Shown piece after piece: positions 25,036 to 37,526 of a stretch of DNA of 64,000 nt (position 1 is its first letter; each line of letters starts with the position of its first letter). The notes under the pieces were generated by a model. That model did not search any database. It was not told the origin of the DNA and was given only the letters and a program-made list of their open reading frames with translations. Origin of the DNA: Variovorax boronicumulans. GTDB lineage: Bacteria; Pseudomonadota; Gammaproteobacteria; Burkholderiales; Burkholderiaceae_C. The position numbers and the translations under genes were made by a program. The stretch is from NCBI RefSeq assembly GCF_029892485.1, contig NZ_JARXVG010000001.1:806001-870000 (forward strand). The letters run 5' to 3'.

Positions 25036-26313
25036 ATGAAATCCGGCCTGCATTTCCTGATCGCCGCCCGCCAGTGCGAGATCGACGAGCTCGACCAGTT
25101 CGCGCGCACCAGCGAGCTGGTCGGCCTGATCGGCCGGCTGGTGCACGCGCTGCAGCGGGAGCGCGGCATGTCCAACGTGTTCCTCGCCTCGCGCGGCCAG
25201 CGCTTCGCCGACCAGCGCGATCCGCAGATTGCCGAATGCCTGGCGCTCGAGGAGGCGGTGCGCAACGGCTTCGACCAACTCGAGACGGAGGCTCGCCAGC
25301 GTGCCAGCGCCGGCAACAGCGCGCGCCTGTTCAGCCGCATCGCCTGGGTGCTGCCGGGGCTGGACGCCCTGCCCGCGCTGCGCCGCCGCGTCGGCGCGCT
25401 CGAACTGGAGCCCGCTGGGGCGACCGCGGCCTTCGCCAAGCTGGTCGCCGGCCTGCTGGCCGTGGTGTTCGAGGCGGCCGACGGCGCCACCGACCCCGAG
25501 ATATCGCGCCTCCTGGTCGCGATGTTCAACTTCATGCAGGGCAAGGAGTTCGCCGGCCAGGAGCGCGCATTCGGCGCCGCCACGCTGGCGCTGGGCCGCA
25601 GCAACGAGGCGCAGCGCGTGCAATGGCTGCACCTGATCGAATCGCAGGAACGCTGCTTTCACGTCTTCACCGATTTCTCGAGCAACGAGGTGCTGGCGCT
25701 CTGGCGCGAGAGCGAGGACTACGCCACCATGGCCGAGCTCGAGCGCCTGCGCCGCGTCGGCACCACGCTGGCTGCGCCCCCCGACGCGCAATACAGCCAG
25801 TTGAGCCAGAGCTGGTTCGACTGCTGTACGCGCCGCATCGACGCCATGCGCACCGTCGAAGACCGCCTCGCCGCCGACCTGCGCGCCCTGTGCAGCCGCA
25901 AGACCGCGCAGGCGCGCACCGACCTCGCGGCCTACCAGCAATTGCTCGGCACGCTGGCGCCGCCATCGGAGGGTGCGATGTTCTTCGACGATGCCGGCAC
26001 CCAGGCCGTCGCCCCCGCGTCCTACGGCCGCGTGCTGGAGCGCTCGGTGCTCGACATGGTGCAGGAGCAGTCGCAGCGCCTGCAGGCCATGAGCGACGAA
26101 TTGCAGACCGTGCGCGCCTCGCTCAACGAGCGCAAGGTGGTCGAGCGCGCCAAGGGCCTGCTGATGGCGCACCGGCGCCTGAGCGAAGACGAAGCCCACA
26201 AGATGCTGCGCCAGACCGCCATGAACCAGAAGCGCCGGCTGGTCGATGTCGCCGAGTCGATGCTGGCCATGGCCGACTACCTGCCGCTGCCCGATGCCCG
26301 TGCGCCGCGCTGA
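25036..26313 (+). CDS. nasR: Nitrate/nitrite-responsive antiterminator, NIT-ANTAR (NasR type)
   Basis: Cytoplasmic regulator that in Klebsiella binds nitrate or nitrite through its NIT domain and then binds leader RNA through its ANTAR domain to prevent termination. This protein has 425 residues. The NIT helical domain spans about 35-295, with the nitrate-domain signature [20 protein letters not shown] at 36-54. The ANTAR domain is at about 355-412 ([33 protein letters not shown]). The start [20 protein letters not shown] follows a sigma-54 promoter. It lies directly upstream of the nrtA leader, its probable target. Confidence 0.92.
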
Positions 26314-26451: not shown

Positions 26452-26468
26452 TGGCACGCAGTTTGCAT
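26452..26468 (+). promoter_or_regulatory. Sigma-54 promoter of the nrtABC operon
   Basis: TGGCACG-CAGT-TTGCAT (26452-26468) is a perfect match to the -24/-12 consensus, with GG (26453-26454) and GC (26465-26466) ten bases apart. The predicted transcript start is near 26478, four bases before the first leader hairpin. It implies activation by an enhancer-binding protein such as NtrC. Confidence 0.92.
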
Positions 26469-26477
26469 AGGTGAGTA

Positions 26478-26608
26478 CATAAGACCTTCGTGGTCTACAG
26501 GCAGGCGGCACCCAACGGCGGGTGCCTCCCACCGAACCGGACAAAGGCGTCCCCATCCCGCAAGGGCTCGTTCGCGAGCAGCCCCTGCGCGGTCGGGACG
26601 CCTTTTTT
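26478..26608 (+). ncRNA. nrtA leader RNA with ANTAR-type hairpins and a terminator
   Basis: The predicted transcript begins with hairpin P1 (AGACC 26482-26486 / GGTCT 26492-26496, loop TTCGT). Eleven bases later comes P2, a seven-base stem GGCACCC (26507-26513) / GGGTGCC (26520-26526) closing the hexaloop AACGGC, with A at 1 and G at 4 as ANTAR proteins require. An intrinsic terminator ends the leader. P1 as drawn has a five-base loop and lacks A1, so it is less canonical. The adjacent nasR gene makes this a likely nitrate-dependent antitermination leader. Confidence 0.82.
26546..26608 (+). terminator. Conditional terminator in the nrtA leader
   Basis: GGCGTCCC (26546-26553) pairs with GGGACGCC (26595-26602), followed directly by six Ts (26603-26608). 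Inside the loop a second stem GCTCG-TTCG-CGAGC (26566-26579) adds stability. It is 48 bp before the nrtA start codon, so transcription would stop before the structural genes unless antitermination occurs. Confidence 0.9.
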
Positions 26609-29689: not shown

Positions 29690-30970
29690 TCAGGACATGA
29701 TGACCTGCAGGCTGTGCTCGTACCAACCCGTGAGACGCTCGAAGGTGTCGACGAGCGCTTCGCTGGAACGAACCAGCGTGGCGCGGCCTTCGGGGCTGTC
29801 CAGCGCCTGCACACCGCCGACTAGGCGCAGCCACTCGTCCCGCGCCGTCACCAACCCGGCGCGGATCTCGGGTGAACTGAGGGGCGCGCGCTCCAGTTCT
29901 AGCAGCGCGGCCTCGAATTCGCTCATGGTCGGCAGCAGCCTGTCGCGCGAAGCGCCTGCGGCGAGCGTCGAAGCCAGCAACGCATCCTTCGCCAGCCGCT
30001 GCGCCCGCATGCGCTGCCGTCCGCAGATGTTGACGATGCGTAGCGCCCGCCGCGCGCCCGAGGCTTCCAGCGCCTCCGTCATCGCTTCGGCCGCCAGCAG
30101 CAAGGCCTCGCCGCGCGCATCGATCTCGGCGAGCCCCTGCGGCGTGGGCTTCACGGCCAGTGCGGTGCCCAATCCGTTCCATGCCGCCTGCACGGCGCCC
30201 AGCGCCTGCACGCCGGCCGCGCCCAGTTCGAGGGTGGCCAGGTGATCCAGGTTCTGCTGCACCCGCTCCGTCGATTGCGTGCGCAGGACCCGGGCGCGCT
30301 GCACGTCGATGCCGGCGAGCAGCTGCGCCGCCACCCGCACCAGCCGCTGCGAGAGCATGCGCAGCTGCCCGGCGCGGTTGATTGCATCGGCCCACTGCGC
30401 CGCCTCGATGACCGAGCGCGACACCTCGCCCAGCCGCAGGTTGGCGTGCATGGCCGCACCGCGCAGCAGGCCGAAGGCTTCGTCTTCCCCGATGCCGCGC
30501 GCGGACATCAGCAGGCCCTTGGCGCGATCGACCCACTTGCGCTCGTCCATGCGCGTGCGCAGGTTGTCGAGTTCGGTGCGCAGCGCGGCTTCGCGCGTCC
30601 ATCGGGCCTGCGCGCGGGCCAGCAACGCGGGGAGCGACAGGGCATCGAGCGGCGCCCATGCGTGCACGCCGAGCGTGACCAGCGCCTCGTGCTGCTCGCC
30701 CGTCAACGGCGGGCCGGCCAGGCTCAGCGCACAGGGCGGCACGCCGTTCCACCCCTTCAGTCCGTCGCGCAATGCCTGCAGTTGCGCCGCCTCGGGCAGG
30801 CAGGCCAGCACCTGTTGCGGTGCAAGCGCACCGGCGCGCTGCACCAGCGTGCGGCAGGTGGCGCGCCCGAGCACCGTGGCGCCGGCCTCCGCGAGGCCTT
30901 GCTGCAGCGGCTCCGGCAAGGGCGCGGAGGCATCGAATTCATTGGGCAGGACGAGGAGAAGGGAAATCAT
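29690..30970 (-). CDS. ANTAR-domain antiterminator with a C-terminal P-box-like sensor domain
   Basis: A second ANTAR protein of 426 residues, start MISLLLVLPNEFDASAPLPE. Residues 1-120 form a degenerate receiver-like region without a clear phospho-Asp. ANTAR lies at about 128-188 (RTRMDERKWVDRAKGLLMSARGIGEDEA). It is followed by a helical domain with two copies of the motif N-x-AG-x-R-M-x-x-QR (AINRAGQLRMLSQRL at 196-210, NICGRQRMRAQRL at 314-326), as in the PilJ N-terminal family and like the P-box nitrate motif of NarX. No transmembrane segment. It is divergent from the MFS nitrate porter, whose leader is its likely target. Confidence 0.82.
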   Translation of the reverse strand: MISLLLVLPNEFDASAPLPEPLQQGLAEAGATVLGRATCRTLVQRAGALAPQQVLACLPEAAQLQALRDGLKGWNGVPPCALSLAGPPLTGEQHEALVTLGVHAWAPLDALSLPALLARAQARWTREAALRTELDNLRTRMDERKWVDRAKGLLMSARGIGEDEAFGLLRGAAMHANLRLGEVSRSVIEAAQWADAINRAGQLRMLSQRLVRVAAQLLAGIDVQRARVLRTQSTERVQQNLDHLATLELGAAGVQALGAVQAAWNGLGTALAVKPTPQGLAEIDARGEALLLAAEAMTEALEASGARRALRIVNICGRQRMRAQRLAKDALLASTLAAGASRDRLLPTMSEFEAALLELERAPLSSPEIRAGLVTARDEWLRLVGGVQALDSPEGRATLVRSSEALVDTFERLTGWYEHSLQVIMS

Positions 30971-31022: not shown

Positions 31023-31039
31023 GGGCACGCCTCTTGCAA
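31023..31039 (+). promoter_or_regulatory. Sigma-54 promoter of the MFS nitrate porter gene
   Basis: GGCACG-CCTC-TTGCAA (31024-31039) matches the -24/-12 consensus except for G in place of the leading T. GG (31024-31025) and GC (31036-31037) are ten bases apart. Transcription should begin near 31049, at the foot of the hexaloop hairpin at 31050. Confidence 0.88.
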
Positions 31040-31048
31040 CGAAGCGGA

Positions 31049-31212
31049 TGCGGTGTAACGAAGCACCGCTTTGGTGAGGCTGCAGTCCCCTGCATCCGGC
31101 CCGGCATGTTCATCGCCGGGCAGCACCCCCACGCCGACAGCGTCCGCTGCCGGCACACCACCCCAACCCTGTCCGTCGACACGTCCCTGCCCGGGTCGCG
31201 CCGCGGCTTTTT
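31049..31212 (+). ncRNA. Leader RNA of the MFS nitrate porter with an ANTAR-type hairpin and terminator
   Basis: The first structure is a seven-base stem GCGGTGT (31050-31056) / GCACCGC (31063-31069) with hexaloop AACGAA, having A1 and G4. Further stems follow: TGCAG/CTGCA (31081-31094), a strong GCCCGGC/GCCGGGC (31099-31121) and an interrupted GCCG-CAGC/GCTG-CGGC (31133-31154). A terminator ends the leader. A second clear hexaloop was not found; an alternative weak fold with loop ATCGCC (31112-31117) would compete with the strong stem. Confidence 0.75.
31189..31212 (+). terminator. Conditional terminator in the MFS porter leader
   Basis: GCCCGG (31189-31194) pairs with CCG(C)GGC (31201-31207) with one bulged base and a six-base loop, followed by five Ts (31208-31212). 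It ends 15 bp before the ATG. The stem is shorter than that in the nrtA leader. Confidence 0.65.
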
Positions 31213-31227
31213 GCACCTTTGAACACC

Positions 31228-32493
31228 ATGTCCGGTTTCAGGAATTTCTTGCAGTCAGGCCACAGTCCCACGCTGTTCGCGGCGTTCCTGTACTTCTCGT
31301 TCTCCTGCTGCATCTGGGTGCTCAACGGCGCCATGGCGCCCTTCATCGGCGAGACCTTCGAGCTTTCGCCCGCACAGAAGGGCCTGATGCTGTCGGTGCC
31401 GATCATTGCGGGCGCACTCATGCGCTTTCCGCTGGGCATCCTCTCGCAGTACATCGGCCGCAAGAAGGCCACGCTGGTCGAGATGGGCCTGATCGCCGTG
31501 GCGATGCTGTTCGGCTTCTTCTTCGTCAAGAGCTTCAACGACCTGCTCGCCATGGGCGTGCTGCTGGGCATTGCCGGCGCGAGCTTCGGCGTGGCGCTGT
31601 CGCTGGGCTCGGGCTGGTTCCCGCCGCAGCACAAGGGCCTGGCGATGGGCCTGGTGGGCGCGGGCAACGTGGGCACGGCGGTGTCGGTGCTGGTGGCGCC
31701 GCCGCTCGCGCAATGGCTGGGCTGGCAGGCGGTGTACGGCGTGGCCGCGGTCGCCATCCTCATCCCGATGGTGGTGATGGTGATCTTCGCCAAGGAGCCG
31801 CCCGACGTGGACAGCCACGCGAGCTTCCGCGAACACATCGCCTGCCTTTTCGAGAAAGACGGCTGGGTCTTCAGCCTGATCTACGGCGTGACCTTCGGCG
31901 GCTTCATCGGCCTCACGACATTCCTGCCCTCGTACTACTACGACCAGTTCGGCGTGAGCAAGGTGCAGGCGGGGCAGCTCACGATGCTCGCGGCCTTCAT
32001 GGGCGCTGCGGTGCGCATCGTGGGCGGATGGCTGTCCGACCGCTGGGGCGGCGTCAACACGCTCACGGTGGTGCTGCTGGTGGTGGCCGTGGGCCTCGTG
32101 CTGGTGGGGCTCTCGTCGGGCTCGCTGGCGCTCACCACGCTGCTCCTGATCGTGTGCTTCGCCGCGCTGGGCGCGGGCAACGGTGCGCTGTTCCAGCTGG
32201 TGCCGCTGCGCTGGCCGCTGAGCACCGCGGTGGCCGGCTCGATGATCGGCGAGATCGGCGCCCTCGGCGGCGGCCTGGTGCCCAACGCCATGGGCCTGTC
32301 GAAGCAGTACCTGGGCAGCTACCTCTGGGGCTTTGTCTTCTTCGGTGCGCTCTCGCTGGCGATGCTGGGCGTGATGCGCGTCATGCAGATCCGCTGGACG
32401 CGCACCTGGGCCGAGAAGGGCGGCCGTGCGCGCACTTCACCGGCTTCCGCTTCCACGACCTATACGGCCCCGAGAAAGGCCGCCCGGCCATGA
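31228..32493 (+). CDS. MFS nitrate/nitrite transporter (NarK/NasA type)
   Basis: Twelve-helix inner-membrane porter of 421 residues for nitrate uptake, and possibly nitrite exchange. The NNP-family features are RFPLGILSQYIGRKKATL in the first half, the nitrate signature-like GIAGASFGVALSLGSGWFPPQHKGLAMGLVGAGNVG, and a second glycine-rich signature in FAALGAGNGALFQLVPL. The ATG at 31228 was chosen; an in-frame TTG three codons upstream is an alternative. A sigma-54 promoter and antiterminated leader precede it. Confidence 0.92.
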   Translation: MSGFRNFLQSGHSPTLFAAFLYFSFSCCIWVLNGAMAPFIGETFELSPAQKGLMLSVPIIAGALMRFPLGILSQYIGRKKATLVEMGLIAVAMLFGFFFVKSFNDLLAMGVLLGIAGASFGVALSLGSGWFPPQHKGLAMGLVGAGNVGTAVSVLVAPPLAQWLGWQAVYGVAAVAILIPMVVMVIFAKEPPDVDSHASFREHIACLFEKDGWVFSLIYGVTFGGFIGLTTFLPSYYYDQFGVSKVQAGQLTMLAAFMGAAVRIVGGWLSDRWGGVNTLTVVLLVVAVGLVLVGLSSGSLALTTLLLIVCFAALGAGNGALFQLVPLRWPLSTAVAGSMIGEIGALGGGLVPNAMGLSKQYLGSYLWGFVFFGALSLAMLGVMRVMQIRWTRTWAEKGGRARTSPASASTTYTAPRKAARP

Positions 32494-32510: not shown

Positions 32511-34232
32511 TCAACGTGGCAAGAAAAGCAGCCACACCACCAGCAGTGCGTTGAACAGCAACGACACGCCGAGGGCGATCTTGTAGAGCATCACCGGATC
32601 GCGGCGGATCAGCGGCGTGGCGGGGGGCGCGCCAACGGGGCGCGAGGCACCGCGCTCCAGCGCGAGCAGCATCTCCTCGGCCGTTTCGAAGCGCTCGCGC
32701 GGATCGCGGGCGACGGCCTTGCGCACCAGGTGGTCGAGCCACACCGGCACATCGGGCCGCAAGCGCGAAAGCGCAACCGGGTCGCGCCGGTAGCGCGCCA
32801 CCTGGTAGGGCTCGATCTCGCCATAGGGCAAGTGCCCGCCCAGCCACTGGTAGAGCGTGGCGCCGAGCGCGAACAGATCGCTGCCCGCGTCCGCGACACC
32901 GCCCTCCTCCCACTGCTCGGGATTGATGTAGCTCGGCGTACCGGCATGCAGTTCGCGCTGGGCCGCGCCCTCGCGCCCGGACAGCGCCACGCCCAGGTCG
33001 AGGATGCGCCAGCGCCCGTCGTCGCCCAGGTGCAGGTTGCCGGGCTTGATGTCCCGGTGCACCACGCCGTGGCGGTGCAGCCGGCCGAGCGCCTTGCTCA
33101 CTTCGATGGCCGCGGCGACCACCTCGGCCACCGTGCCGCGCGCGCCGGACTTGCGCATCTGCTCCAGCGTACGGCCGCCGTGCCAGTCGAACACGATGTA
33201 GAGCGCGCTCGCGTTCTCGGCGCGCTCGTGCACGCGAACGAAACCGCCGCCCTCCCCGACGCGCTGGCCCAGCCAGGCTTCGTGCGCGAGCATCGCGCGC
33301 TCCTGCGGATCACTGGCGCGCGAGGGATGCAGCGTCTTGAGCGCGACCAACTCGCGCGTGGCCGGATGGCGCGCCTGGTACAGCAGATGCACGCCGGTGT
33401 CGGCCACAAGGCCGGTGACGACGTAGCCGTCGAGCACGTCGCCCACCTTCAGCAACGGCGGCGGTGCGAGCCGGCGGCCGTCGCCGAGTTCGTCGTCGAG
33501 CTGCCGCGCATCGAGGCCGACCACGCGGATCACCAGCGCGGTCGCGTTGTCGCGCGTGCCGGCGTCCAGCGCCGCATTCACCAGCGCCTCGCTCGCCGCT
33601 TCGGCATCGCCCTGCAGCGCGAGTGCGGCCACTTGCTGCGGCTTGAGCACGCCGTGCACCCCGTCGGAGGTCAGCACGAAGCAGTCGCCCACGCGAACGT
33701 CGCCCTGCGCGTAGTCGACGCGCACCTGGTCGTCCAGGCCGATGGCTCGCGTGAGGCGGCTGCGCATGTCGGGATGTTCGAAGGCATGGTCCTGCGTGAG
33801 CGGCACGGCCGCATCGCCGTCGGCGCGCACGCGCCAGGCGCGCGTGTCGCCCACGTGGGCCAGCGTGTAGCTCTGGCCGTGCAGCACCAGTGCGGTGAGC
33901 GTGGTGAGCGCGGTCGCGCTGCCCGCGCGGCGCCGGTTGTGGTCGGCGAGCCAGGCGTTCTGCGCGCCGATCAGGCGGTCGAGCGCGGCGGTCGGCTCCC
34001 AGGTGTCGGGCGTGGCGAAGTAGTCGGCCAGCAGGCCCATCACCGTGGTCTGCGCCGCCTCCTGGCCGCGCCCGCCAGTGGACACGCCATCGGCAATCGC
34101 AGCGATGAGCCCGCGCGCCTCGTCGCCGCGCGGGGCATGCACCGCACCGGCGAAATCCTCGTTCACTTCGCGGGGTCCGCGAAGGCTGCTGTAGCCGATG
34201 TCCACTTCGAAGCTCATGGCGCCATTGTCCAT
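32511..34232 (-). CDS. Bifunctional PP2C protein phosphatase / Ser-Thr protein kinase, membrane anchored
   Basis: A 573-residue fusion. Residues 1-240 are a PP2C phosphatase with the metal ligands in NEDF (24-27), ADG (48-50), SDG (189-191) and RDN (227-229). Residues 265-530 are a Hanks-type kinase with Lys 299 (VALK), catalytic HRDIKPGN (392-399), DLG in place of DFG (412-414) and NPE in place of APE; its glycine loop is degenerate (GLVADTG). One C-terminal helix (548-571) anchors it with both domains inside. GGAG precedes the ATG at 34232. It is antisense between the MFS porter and nirB; substrates unknown. Confidence 0.92.
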   Translation of the reverse strand: MDNGAMSFEVDIGYSSLRGPREVNEDFAGAVHAPRGDEARGLIAAIADGVSTGGRGQEAAQTTVMGLLADYFATPDTWEPTAALDRLIGAQNAWLADHNRRRAGSATALTTLTALVLHGQSYTLAHVGDTRAWRVRADGDAAVPLTQDHAFEHPDMRSRLTRAIGLDDQVRVDYAQGDVRVGDCFVLTSDGVHGVLKPQQVAALALQGDAEAASEALVNAALDAGTRDNATALVIRVVGLDARQLDDELGDGRRLAPPPLLKVGDVLDGYVVTGLVADTGVHLLYQARHPATRELVALKTLHPSRASDPQERAMLAHEAWLGQRVGEGGGFVRVHERAENASALYIVFDWHGGRTLEQMRKSGARGTVAEVVAAAIEVSKALGRLHRHGVVHRDIKPGNLHLGDDGRWRILDLGVALSGREGAAQRELHAGTPSYINPEQWEEGGVADAGSDLFALGATLYQWLGGHLPYGEIEPYQVARYRRDPVALSRLRPDVPVWLDHLVRKAVARDPRERFETAEEMLLALERGASRPVGAPPATPLIRRDPVMLYKIALGVSLLFNALLVVWLLFLPR

Positions 34233-34293
34233 GTGCGTCTCCACGCGCGCCGTGCGCCTCCCCTCGCTTGAGTCACAGGAAAGGTCCAGCCCC

Positions 34294-36726
34294 ATGAAGA
34301 AAATGAAACTCGTGATGGTCGGCAACGGCATGGCCGGCGTGCGCACGCTCGAAGAGCTGCTCAAGATCGCGCCCGACCTGTACGACATCACCGTCTTCGG
34401 CGCCGAGCCGCATCCGAACTACAACCGCATCCTGCTGTCGCCGGTGCTCGCTGGCGAGCAGACGGTCGACGAAATCGTGCTCAACAGCTGGGAGTGGTAC
34501 ACCGACAACCACATCACGCTGCACGCGGGCAAGAAGGTGGTCGAGGTCGACCGCGTCAAGCGCATCGTGCGTGCCGAGGACGGCACCGAAGCCGCCTACG
34601 ACCGCCTGCTGATGTGCACCGGCTCCAACCCCTTCATGCTGCCCGTGCCGGGCAAAGACCTGAAGGGCGTGATCGCCTATCGCGACATCGCCGACACCGA
34701 CTACATGATCGAGACCGCGCGCACGCACAAGAACGCGGTGGTCATCGGCGGCGGCCTGCTGGGCCTGGAAGCGGCGAACGGCCTGATGCTGCGCGGCATG
34801 AACGTGACCGTGGTGCACGTCATGCCCTGGCTCATGGAGCGCCAGCTCGACGACGTGGCGGGCAAGCTGCTGCAGAAGTCGCTGGAAGACAGGGGCCTGA
34901 AGTTCCTGATGGGTGCGCAGACGCAGGACATGGTCGGCAACGAAGAGGGCCGCGTCAAAGCCATCCGCTTCAAGGACGGCACCGAAGTCGCGGCCGACCT
35001 GGTGGTCATGGCCGTGGGCATCCGCCCCAACGTAGAGCTGGCCGAGAAGATGCGCCTGCACTGCAACCGCGGCATCGTCGTCACCGACACCATGCAGACC
35101 GTGACCGATGCGCGCATCTACTCGGTGGGCGAATGCGCGGCGCACCGCGGCATCGCCTACGGCCTTGTGGCGCCGCTGTTCGAGCAGGCCAAGGTCGCGG
35201 CCAACCACCTGGCGCAGTTCGGCATCGGCCGCTACCTGGGTTCGCTCACCTCCACCAAGCTGAAGGTGACGGGCATCGACCTCTTCAGCGCCGGCGAGTT
35301 CATGGGCGGCGAAGGCACCGAGGAGATCGTGATGAGCGACCCCTTCGGCGGCGTCTACAAGAAGCTGGTGCTCAAGGACGACAAGCTGGTGGGCGCCTGC
35401 CTCTACGGCGACACGGTGGATGGCAGCTGGTACTTCAAGCTCCTGCGCGACGGCCGCAGCGTGCACGACATCCGCGACAAGCTGATGTTCGGCGAGTCGA
35501 ACATCGGCGACACCGGCCACGAAGGCCACAGCAAGGCCGCGAGCATGCCCGACGATGCCGAGGTCTGCGGCTGCAACGGCGTGAGCAAGGGCACCATCTG
35601 CAAGGCGATCAAGGACAAGGGTCTCTTCACGCTCGATGAGGTGAAGAAGCACACCAAGGCCAGCGCCAGCTGCGGCTCGTGCACCGGGCTGGTCGAGCAG
35701 ATCCTGATGTTCACCGCGGGCGGCGACTACTCGGCCACGCCGAAGAAAAAGGCGATCTGCGGCTGCACCGACGCGAGCCACCAAGATGCGCGCGACGCGA
35801 TCCGCAAAGAGCACTACCTCACGCACGACGAGGTCTACCGCAACCTCGGCTGGCGCACGCCCAATGGCTGCGCCACCTGCCGCCCGGCCATCAACTACTA
35901 CCTGATCAGCACCTGGCCCAAAGAGGCGAAGGACGATCCGCAGAGCCGCTTCATCAACGAGCGCAGCCACGCCAACATCCAGAAAGACGGCACCTACTCG
36001 GTCATTCCGCGCATGTGGGGCGGCCACACCACGCCCGACGAGTTGCGGCGCATCGCGGATGCGGCCGACAAGTACAAGATCCCGACCGTCAAGGTCACCG
36101 GCGGCCAGCGCATCGACCTCCTGGGCGTGAAGAAGGAAGACCTGGAGGGCGTTTGGAAGGACATCGGCATGCCCTCGGGCTTTGCCTATGCCAAGTCGCT
36201 GCGCACGGTGAAGACCTGCGTGGGCAGCGAATGGTGCCGCTTCGGCACGCAAGACTCAACGCAGATGGGCAAGGACCTGGAGCGCGCGCTCTGGGCGATG
36301 TACTCGCCGCACAAGGTCAAGCTGGCCGTCTCGGGGTGCCCGCGCAACTGTGCCGAGGCCGGCATCAAGGACGTGGGCGTGATCGGCGTCGACTCGGGCT
36401 GGGAGCTGTACGTGGGCGGCAACGGCGGCATCAAGACCGAAGTGGCGCAGTTCCTCGTGAAGGTGAAGACGGCCGCCGAGGTGATGGAGTTTTCAGGCGC
36501 CTTCCTGCAGCTGTACCGCGAGGAAGGCTGGTACCTGGAGCGCACGGTGCACTACATCGGACGCGTGGGCCTCGATTACGTGAAAAAGAAGATCCTCGAG
36601 GACGCGGAAGGCCGCAAGGCGCTGTGGGAGCGGCTGCAGTTCGCGCTCGACGGCGAGCCCGATCCATGGTTCGAATCGGCCGAGGCCTCGGTGGACGTGC
36701 GGCAGTTCGCGCCGCTGTCCATCTGA
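34294..36726 (+). CDS. nirB: Assimilatory nitrite reductase large subunit
   Basis: NAD(P)H-dependent siroheme enzyme reducing nitrite to ammonium in the cytoplasm, 810 residues. It has an FAD site GNGMAGVRTLEELL near the N-terminus, an NAD(P) site IGGGLLGLEAANGL, Bfd-like [2Fe-2S] segments (CGCNGVSKGTICKAIKDKG near 425 and CGSC after it, then CGCTDASH), and the siroheme-[4Fe-4S] ligands in CVGSEWCRFG (about 642) and SGCPRNC (about 680). AGGAAAGG precedes the ATG at 34294. Only 61 bp separate it from the divergent kinase gene. Confidence 0.97.
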   Translation: MKKMKLVMVGNGMAGVRTLEELLKIAPDLYDITVFGAEPHPNYNRILLSPVLAGEQTVDEIVLNSWEWYTDNHITLHAGKKVVEVDRVKRIVRAEDGTEAAYDRLLMCTGSNPFMLPVPGKDLKGVIAYRDIADTDYMIETARTHKNAVVIGGGLLGLEAANGLMLRGMNVTVVHVMPWLMERQLDDVAGKLLQKSLEDRGLKFLMGAQTQDMVGNEEGRVKAIRFKDGTEVAADLVVMAVGIRPNVELAEKMRLHCNRGIVVTDTMQTVTDARIYSVGECAAHRGIAYGLVAPLFEQAKVAANHLAQFGIGRYLGSLTSTKLKVTGIDLFSAGEFMGGEGTEEIVMSDPFGGVYKKLVLKDDKLVGACLYGDTVDGSWYFKLLRDGRSVHDIRDKLMFGESNIGDTGHEGHSKAASMPDDAEVCGCNGVSKGTICKAIKDKGLFTLDEVKKHTKASASCGSCTGLVEQILMFTAGGDYSATPKKKAICGCTDASHQDARDAIRKEHYLTHDEVYRNLGWRTPNGCATCRPAINYYLISTWPKEAKDDPQSRFINERSHANIQKDGTYSVIPRMWGGHTTPDELRRIADAADKYKIPTVKVTGGQRIDLLGVKKEDLEGVWKDIGMPSGFAYAKSLRTVKTCVGSEWCRFGTQDSTQMGKDLERALWAMYSPHKVKLAVSGCPRNCAEAGIKDVGVIGVDSGWELYVGGNGGIKTEVAQFLVKVKTAAEVMEFSGAFLQLYREEGWYLERTVHYIGRVGLDYVKKKILEDAEGRKALWERLQFALDGEPDPWFESAEASVDVRQFAPLSI

Positions 36727-36746: not shown

Positions 36747-37526
36747 TTGAAACGACGACTCTTCATCGCTTCCACCGCCCTGGCCGCGGTGGGTGCCCGC
36801 GCGCAGGTGGCAGACCTCAACGACGCCATCAACAAGGCGGGCCGCCAGCGCATGCTGTCGCAGCGCGCGAGCAAGGCCTACCTCGCGCTCCTGCACAAGG
36901 TGGAAACGCGCAGCGCCCAGCAGGTGCTCGACAAGTCGATCGCCCTGTTCGAAAAGCAGCTGGGCGAGCTCAAGGCCTTCGCGCCGAGCCCCACGATCCG
37001 CGACACCTACGAAGCGCTCGACGGCGCCTGGGGCAATTTCAAACGCGAGCTCACCACCGTCACGCCGGGCAAGGACGAAGTCGCCAAGGTCGTGAAGCTA
37101 GACGCCGCCGTGCTCGCGCTCGCGAACCAGGGCACCACGCAGTACGAAGCCGCCTCGGGCAAGCCGGTGGGCCGGCTGGTCAACATCGCGGGCCGCCAGC
37201 GCATGCTGTCGCAGCGCATGGCCAAGTTCTACCTGGCCGGCGCGATGCAGGTGGACGCGGCCGCCAGCGCGGCCGAGATCGCGAAGTCGCGCGCCGAATT
37301 CCTTGCGGCGCTCGAAGTGCTGCGGGGTGCTCCGGAAGCCACCGCGCAGATCCGCCAGGAACTGGTGCTGGCCGATGCGCAGTGGATGTTCTTCAACCGC
37401 GGGCTGCTGCGCCTGGAAGACGCCGGCGCCTCGCCCGCCCTGATGTCCGACGTGTTCGTGAGCAGCGAGAACCTGCTCGCGATCATGGACCGTGTGACCG
37501 GCCTGTATTCCGACCTCAAAACCTAG
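36747..37526 (+). CDS. Secreted protein with two P-box/PilJ-like motifs, in the nir operon
   Basis: 259 residues from TTG at 36747 (GGAGAG six bases upstream). The N-terminus LKRRLFIASTALAAVGARAQ is a signal peptide, so the mature protein is periplasmic; no other membrane segment or output domain follows. Two repeats carry INKAGRQRMLSQR (28-40) and VNIAGRQRMLSQR (145-157), the type IV pilus chemotaxis (PilJ N-terminal) motif that resembles the NarX/NarQ nitrate-binding P-box. Its place between nirB and nirD suggests nitrate or nitrite binding, but no function is proven. Confidence 0.82.
   Translation: MKRRLFIASTALAAVGARAQVADLNDAINKAGRQRMLSQRASKAYLALLHKVETRSAQQVLDKSIALFEKQLGELKAFAPSPTIRDTYEALDGAWGNFKRELTTVTPGKDEVAKVVKLDAAVLALANQGTTQYEAASGKPVGRLVNIAGRQRMLSQRMAKFYLAGAMQVDAAASAAEIAKSRAEFLAALEVLRGAPEATAQIRQELVLADAQWMFFNRGLLRLEDAGASPALMSDVFVSSENLLAIMDRVTGLYSDLKT

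Follow-up and report, generated by a model that had tools for sequence, protein, structure and literature searches.

A PilJ-ANTAR gene divergent from narK in Variovorax boronicumulans: a candidate single-chain nitrate regulator of leader RNA

The PilJ-ANTAR gene and its sensor motifs

The DNA analysed here (the window) is a stretch of 64,000 nucleotides (nt) from Variovorax boronicumulans, and our subject is a gene in it that joins an ANTAR domain to two PilJ sensor domains, referred to as PilJ-ANTAR. The initial annotation had described an open reading frame (ORF) combining ANTAR with a soluble P-box-like sensor, and this frame proved real, running from an ATG start to a TGA stop over 426 residues in the window translation. 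The gene is composed of the following features.

29690..30970, minus strand: PilJ-ANTAR gene, receiver-like domain, ANTAR and two PilJ domains, 426 amino acids (ORF, Pfam, model)
30635..30970, minus strand: receiver-like (pseudo-receiver) domain, residues 1-112 (model, profile matches, alignment column)
30407..30565, minus strand: ANTAR RNA-binding-type domain, residues 136-188 (PF03861, E 5.7e-18)
30053..30406, minus strand: first PilJ four-helix bundle, residues 189-306 (Pfam, model)
30341..30385, minus strand: motif 1, residues 196-210, AINRAGQLRMLSQRL, P-box/N-box type (alignment, loci)
29693..30052, minus strand: second PilJ four-helix bundle, residues 307-426 (PF13675, McpN 6gcv match, model)
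29993..30037, minus strand: motif 2, residues 312-326, IVNICGRQRMRAQRL, N-box type (alignment, loci)

Based on Pfam, the protein scored 64.9 bits for PF03861 (ANTAR; curated cut-off 27.3) and 61.5 bits for PF13675 (PilJ; cut-off 26.6), the latter in two stretches with E 1e-16. For the second bundle the best PF13675 stretch covered residues 310-387 and the match to McpN (6gcv) had E 7e-6; PF13675 was matched by 32/32 sensor halves at E <= 0.01. In profile searches against solved structures, an alignment of 53 sequences (A2) matched Rv1626 (1s8n) over residues 5-185 with E 1e-23, EutV with E 1.2e-21 and AmiR (1qo0) over residues 54-180 with E 5e-8, and C-terminal of ANTAR it matched McpN, PilJ, NarX and NarQ, the sensor half having been run separately as well. 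The Pfam scan of the protein gave no HAMP or kinase domain and no NIT match (PF08376) at E <= 1, hhalign against a NIT alignment gave a probability of 0.3%, and no NCBIfam model matched; in sequence the sensor is thus distinct from the NIT domain of NasR, as had been suggested. No transmembrane helix was seen, since the highest mean of any 19-residue Kyte-Doolittle window was 1.26, in agreement with the annotated solubility.

Residues 1-112 showed a beta-alpha pattern in the predicted structure. The receiver position after strand 3 was occupied by Pro in 34/53 sequences, including the window protein, and by Asp in 6/53, and judged from this alignment the receiver-like domain is degenerate, without a conserved phosphoacceptor Asp. 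The domain order is pseudo-receiver, ANTAR, PilJ, PilJ, and both boxes belong to complete sensor domains.

For the structure we used an alignment-based prediction and discarded a single-sequence run (predicted local distance difference test score, pLDDT, 55). The two PilJ halves are predicted to form two four-helix bundles in one chain, a NIT-like fold trait, and in the model the helix 180-219 runs unbroken from the last ANTAR helix into the first helix of bundle 1. With Foldseek, NasR was not among the best 50 matches listed, and the fold match to it came from a second structure aligner. The NarX sensor had been proposed as the relevant fold; the model superposed on NarQ, and the profiles matched both NarX and NarQ. 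The superposed part starts with residue 171 of the model and residue 19 of NarQ which, given the extent of the first membrane helix of NarQ, would put the last ANTAR helix in the place of that helix.

Two P-box-like motifs after ANTAR had also been reported, and both were present, at residues 196-210 and, as read here, 312-326. The NarX/NarQ-type P-box motif is published as A-I-N-x-A-G-S-L-R-M-Q-S-Y-R-L (PMC8199190) and the McpN N-box is [IVL]-[ND]-x-A-G-x-Q-R-M-L-[ST]-Q (PMC6381276). By manual count, motif 1 of the window protein agreed with the former at 11/14 fixed positions and with the latter at 9/10; motif 2 matched 7/10 N-box positions, departing at C316, R322 and A323. Invariant among the 53 sequences were N198, R199, G201, Q202, L203, R204, Q208 and R209 in the region of motif 1, and N314, G317, Q319, R320, R325 and K328 in that of motif 2, while M205 and M321 were each kept in 52/53, so that G-x-x-R-M is present in both copies. 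The conservation of the motifs in this alignment exceeds chance.

The 53 sequences are the window protein and 52 relatives with 37-88% identity, taken from 47 of 79 loci and from 5 of 120 listed database proteins; near-duplicates, the frameshifted L012 and the truncated L055, L062 and L071 were left out. As the 79 loci were partly fetched by the peptide patterns RGAAMHAN or NRAGQLRM, they are biased toward motif 1. We therefore give separately 31 unselected loci from whole-protein genome searches, of which 30 were parsed (28 from the family and 2 from the order; L149 left out). Their 29 family loci were the best-scoring of 56 other carriers, and 11 of the 31 came from genomes already among the earlier loci. 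Both N-x-x-G-x-x-R motifs were found in 30/30 parsed loci, and in 19/19 from genomes new to the set. Five relatives (L141, L142, L150, L157 and L158) carry NLAGQQRMLSQ as motif 1, a full match to the McpN N-box, instead of NRAGQLRMLSQ, and may differ in nitrate/nitrite preference.

According to PMC6381276, McpN holds one nitrate on its dimer axis, with R61 binding and G58, A59 and M62 in contact. The tandem PilJ protein of P. aeruginosa is described there as having no conserved N-boxes and no nitrate binding, which makes the retention of both N-boxes in PilJ-ANTAR informative. The ligand is likely nitrate and not another small anion, held between the two PilJ halves. On the basis of the fold match, R204 and R320 would face one pocket, with one pocket per chain.

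Leader hairpins and neighbouring genes

The gene divergent from PilJ-ANTAR was narK in 66/79 loci, nirB in 8/79 and nrtA in 2/79, and in 76/79 one of the three lay divergent within 1.5 kb. For the remaining 3/79, narK was 3.4 kb off in one and no such neighbour was in view in two. Among the unselected parsed loci, narK or nirB was on the opposite strand in 30/30. The upstream regions in the window contain the following features.

31023..31038, plus strand: narK sigma54-type -24/-12 promoter-like site, GGGCACGCCTCTTGCA, 11/12 consensus positions
31050..31069, plus strand: narK leader hairpin GCGGTGT-AACGAA-GCACCGC, ANTAR-type six-base loop (A1, G4)
31228..32493, plus strand: narK-type major facilitator superfamily transporter gene, divergent from PilJ-ANTAR, likely ATG start (PF07690 on ORF 31219-32493)
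26452..26467, plus strand: nrtA sigma54-type site, TGGCACGCAGTTTGCA, 12/12 consensus positions
26482..26496, plus strand: nrtA leader hairpin 1, AGACC-TTCGT-GGTCT, five-base loop
26507..26526, plus strand: nrtA leader hairpin 2, GGCACCC-AACGGC-GGGTGCC (A1, G4)
26546..26608, plus strand: nrtA leader intrinsic-terminator-like stem and U tract, long branched stem (folding)

A hexaloop with A at the first and G at the fourth position is the published ANTAR recognition signature, normally in two hairpins (PMC3369931, PMC7496416). The narK upstream regions had a sigma54-type site, GGCAC...TTGC, followed by a hairpin with a six-base loop, mostly AACGAA or AACGAC, in which G is fourth. This hairpin began 11-16 nt past the C of the -12 GC, and at 13 nt in 48/65, near the expected transcript start. 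A leader entered the counts only if its locus offered 300 nt of sequence and the alignment began close to the start of the gene, which left 68 for narK, 48 for nrtA and 70 for nirB. On this basis a hairpin with an A..G.. loop was found in 65/68 narK leaders in comparison to 81/2700 shuffled stretches, in 45/48 nrtA leaders (where any hairpin of this kind no more than 75 nt from the site was counted), and in 6/70 nirB leaders, all six among the 8 loci in which nirB is divergent. The narK leaders without it were L060, L075 and L080, the last two having the same stem with the loop GACGAT. In the unselected loci, where the loop was loosened to [AG]..G with stems of 6 or more, the sigma54 site and hairpin occurred together in 27/30 (38/600 shuffles), and in 16/19 from new genomes only.

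Additionally, the stem of the narK-type leaders covaried. In an alignment (A3) of 48 of 49 distinct leader stretches and the window, cut by promoter distance and not by pairing, and with L064 (no hairpin) left out, 97.6% of cells were paired in comparison to 85.2% in shuffles, and both-side changes were found at 5/7 pairs.

Most narK leaders had one hexaloop hairpin; two ([AG]..G) were seen in, for example, L079, L086, L090, L145, L148, L151 and L152, and in L122 of the window's own genome. A further AACGAA just 5' of the narK hairpin was considered as a first ANTAR hairpin and dropped, as its position is 3' of the -12 element but still ahead of the expected start. The nrtA hairpin 1, with its five-base loop in the window, has an AACGAA loop in L024 and L026.

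A scan of the own genome with the sigma54-hairpin pattern gave 13 places, and 6 with the reversed pattern; the nrtA leader falls outside the spacing of this pattern. A hexaloop hairpin was present at narK and L122, a five-pair hairpin with another loop at L119, L124 and L130, and none at the other 8. L122 (G000:C2:411092-411134, minus strand, on another contig than the window) has a sigma54-type site followed by one hexaloop hairpin, CCGCGGC-AACGCC-GCCGCGG, 19 nt past the -12 C and by another, TCCGCT-AACGAC-GGCGGA, at 52 nt. A second nirB-type gene likely starts about 210 nt after the former and about 175 nt after the latter; its frame runs off the end of the locus and scored 548.6 bits, below the NirB cut-off of 578.35.

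A terminator-like stem was found in 37/45 related nrtA leaders versus 14/68 narK leaders. The nrtA terminator of the window was missed by a plain terminator scan, its stem being long and branched, and was found by folding, and the narK terminator candidate of the window folded no better than shuffles. The 65 narK leaders contained on average 42% C and 28% G on the 3' side of the hairpin, a C-over-G composition that fits Rho-dependent termination without showing it. In the open literature, as far as it was covered, we met no description of ANTAR proteins acting on Rho-dependent termination. A block of ribosome binding is unlikely, as the hairpin lies near the 5' end, about 160 nt before the likely start codon. 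The probable output is therefore that nitrate governs elongation of the transcript, whichever kind of terminator acts on narK.

Two further genes of the window bear on this system.

25036..26313, plus strand: NIT-ANTAR (NasR-like) gene (PF08376, E 2.8e-53; PF03861)
36747..37526, plus strand: free-standing tandem PilJ gene, flanked by nirB and nirD, two N-boxes (profile comparison)

The NIT alignment (A5) matched NasR (4akk) with E 3.5e-48. Two ANTAR regulators, with nitrate-type sensors that are unrelated in sequence but predicted to be similar in fold, thus flank one nitrate transporter operon. In the free-standing tandem PilJ protein, which is related to the sensor half of PilJ-ANTAR along its entire length, both N-boxes match fully, and relatives occur across the order (L092-L098, L100-L104, L108, L115, L117 and L118): the order search retrieved 30 loci, of which 16 contained one. 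By eye, their starts are signal-peptide-like and often twin-arginine-like, and our guess is that the protein is a soluble periplasmic nitrate binder. Between narK and nirB, at 32511-34391 on the minus strand, lies a fusion of a protein phosphatase 2C and a Ser/Thr kinase, a relative of which was present in 58/79 loci. With Rfam, only a tRNA was found in the window.

PilJ-ANTAR was matched by 837 database proteins among 7996 scored candidates, 120 of which were listed. In the family sample 57/299 genomes (about a fifth) and 33/141 genera matched at E <= 1e-30, and in the order-wide sample 3/300 genomes did so (G000, G062 and G230). As free-standing tandem PilJ proteins occur in the order loci, the simplest origin suggested by these sequences would be that a receiver-ANTAR gene took up a domain of this sort.

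Proposed mechanism and alternatives

We favour, with a probability of about 0.68, the reading that PilJ-ANTAR is a single-chain nitrate sensor acting on the narK or nirB leader hairpin so that the gene is expressed. The two PilJ halves are predicted to pair in a fold such as that of the dimeric NarX sensor (or of NIT in NasR), and nitrate in the cytoplasm would bind between them. The signal would pass via the helix that continues from ANTAR into the first sensor helix, which bears motif 1, and nitrate binding would release or align ANTAR, which could then grip the hairpin close to where the divergent transcript, that of narK (or nirB), begins. Under nitrogen shortage, sigma54 and NtrC initiate transcription. 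Nitrogen shortage would start the transcript in this way and cytoplasmic nitrate would let it through, a step analogous to that of NasR on the Klebsiella nasF leader. The interpretation given in the initial annotation was partly supported; it had overlooked the N-terminal receiver-like domain, the fact that each motif is part of a complete sensor domain in tandem with the other, and the targets in RNA.

A bolder version, which we consider doubtful, is that bacteria of the family built here, from scratch, a second nitrate RNA switch. An exported tandem PilJ would have been captured to give a single-chain cytoplasmic NarX dimer, with the last ANTAR helix replacing the first membrane helix of NarX; it would counter Rho-dependent termination on narK and nirB, with leaders that for the most part have no intrinsic terminator and contain more C than G, and the exported twin beside nirB would report outside nitrate.

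Three alternatives were considered. The tandem PilJ half might keep its fold and sense nitrite, another anion or nothing, the regulator answering another cue. This would agree with the lack of nitrate binding reported for P. aeruginosa PilJ, itself a tandem PilJ protein (PMC6381276), and with the three fixed positions at which motif 2 is off the N-box. However, the G-x-x-R-M contacts show no or almost no variation in either half, unlike in that PilJ, motif 1 is a full N-box in five relatives, and the recurrent divergent neighbours are narK, nirB or nrtA in the selected loci and narK or nirB in the unselected ones; we regard this alternative as unlikely.

Less likely still, it is NIT-ANTAR or a protein of the NasT type that recognises the hairpins, and PilJ-ANTAR has another RNA target or regulates through binding to a partner. 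A NIT-ANTAR gene stands beside nrtA or nrtABC in 41/79 loci, some of the other 38 being cut short; further ANTAR frames, several of them NasT-sized, occur elsewhere in the genomes searched; and in Variovorax the nrtA hairpins accompany NIT-ANTAR. The hairpin nevertheless precedes whichever gene is divergent from PilJ-ANTAR, be it narK, nirB or nrtA. A NIT match was found in 10/14 genomes searched and none in G004, G005, G007 and G008, yet the hairpin is present also in G005, G007 and G008. G005 (Scleromatobacter humisilvae, L065; an assembly of unstated completeness) had two ANTAR matches, of which only PilJ-ANTAR was above the Pfam cut-off, and its narK leader keeps GCGGTGC-AACGAA-GCACCGC, which ties the hairpin to PilJ-ANTAR. 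The two regulators may share targets, and in other genomes hairpin reading is likely shared with NIT-ANTAR or NasT-type proteins.

It is very improbable that the actual input comes through the pseudo-receiver, bound by a partner in the way AmiC holds AmiR and NasS holds NasT, and that the PilJ pair serves only for dimerisation or as a linker. Residues 1-188 do resemble AmiR, EutV and Rv1626, but no alignment column ahead of residue 144 is invariant, whereas invariant columns are present in both sensor motifs. The directly upstream gene is the divergent transporter or reductase, no search having been aimed at AmiC- or NasS-like partners, and NrtA, encoded in the locus, belongs to a fold family related to NasS.

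Comparison with known systems

Residues 1-188 of PilJ-ANTAR are like AmiR, EutV and Rv1626 in sequence profile and predicted fold. It differs from them in that the phosphoacceptor is not conserved, as is likewise the case in AmiR, and in the tandem sensor added at the C terminus. NarX and NarQ have membrane helices and a kinase, whereas PilJ-ANTAR has none of these and carries two sensor copies in one chain; the P-box A-I-N-x-A-G-x-L-R-M is kept in motif 1, and the profile matches were to NarX 3ezi and NarQ 5iji. In McpN (PA2788, 6gcv), periplasmic PilJ domains pair between two chains (PMC6381276), whereas PilJ-ANTAR has two copies per chain and no membrane helices. P. aeruginosa PilJ (7zjr) is a chemoreceptor, set apart by its N-boxes and ligand behaviour as described above. 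The free-standing tandem PilJ protein shares the PilJ pair and its two N-boxes (a profile-profile comparison gave a probability of 99.9% with E 3.3e-32 over 226 columns) and differs in its signal-peptide-like N terminus and in having no ANTAR.

PilJ domains are known to occur in transcriptional regulators (PMC6381276), and public annotation shows the two domains and their combination, under names such as 'ANTAR domain-containing' and 'PilJ/NarX-like'. In the open literature, subscription papers aside, we found no description of what an ANTAR-PilJ protein does. The protein would offer a clean test of whether a soluble single chain can reconstruct NarX-type nitrate sensing at a dimer interface and, with no NIT domain involved, use it to drive binding to RNA. 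If neither a membrane nor a partner kinase is needed, as predicted, the response to the ligand should be measurable on a single purified protein, and the helix common to ANTAR and bundle 1 would show how a four-helix sensor transfers its signal. The leaders suggest a ready regulon of narK, nirB and nrtABC.

Another close comparison is with NasR, the NIT-ANTAR protein of Klebsiella oxytoca (4akk). There the sensor is N-terminal to ANTAR, whereas in PilJ-ANTAR it is C-terminal; PilJ-ANTAR adds an N-terminal receiver-like domain, and between its PilJ sensor and NIT no similarity in sequence was detectable. PilJ-ANTAR would be a system that works in the manner of NasR, outside the NIT family.
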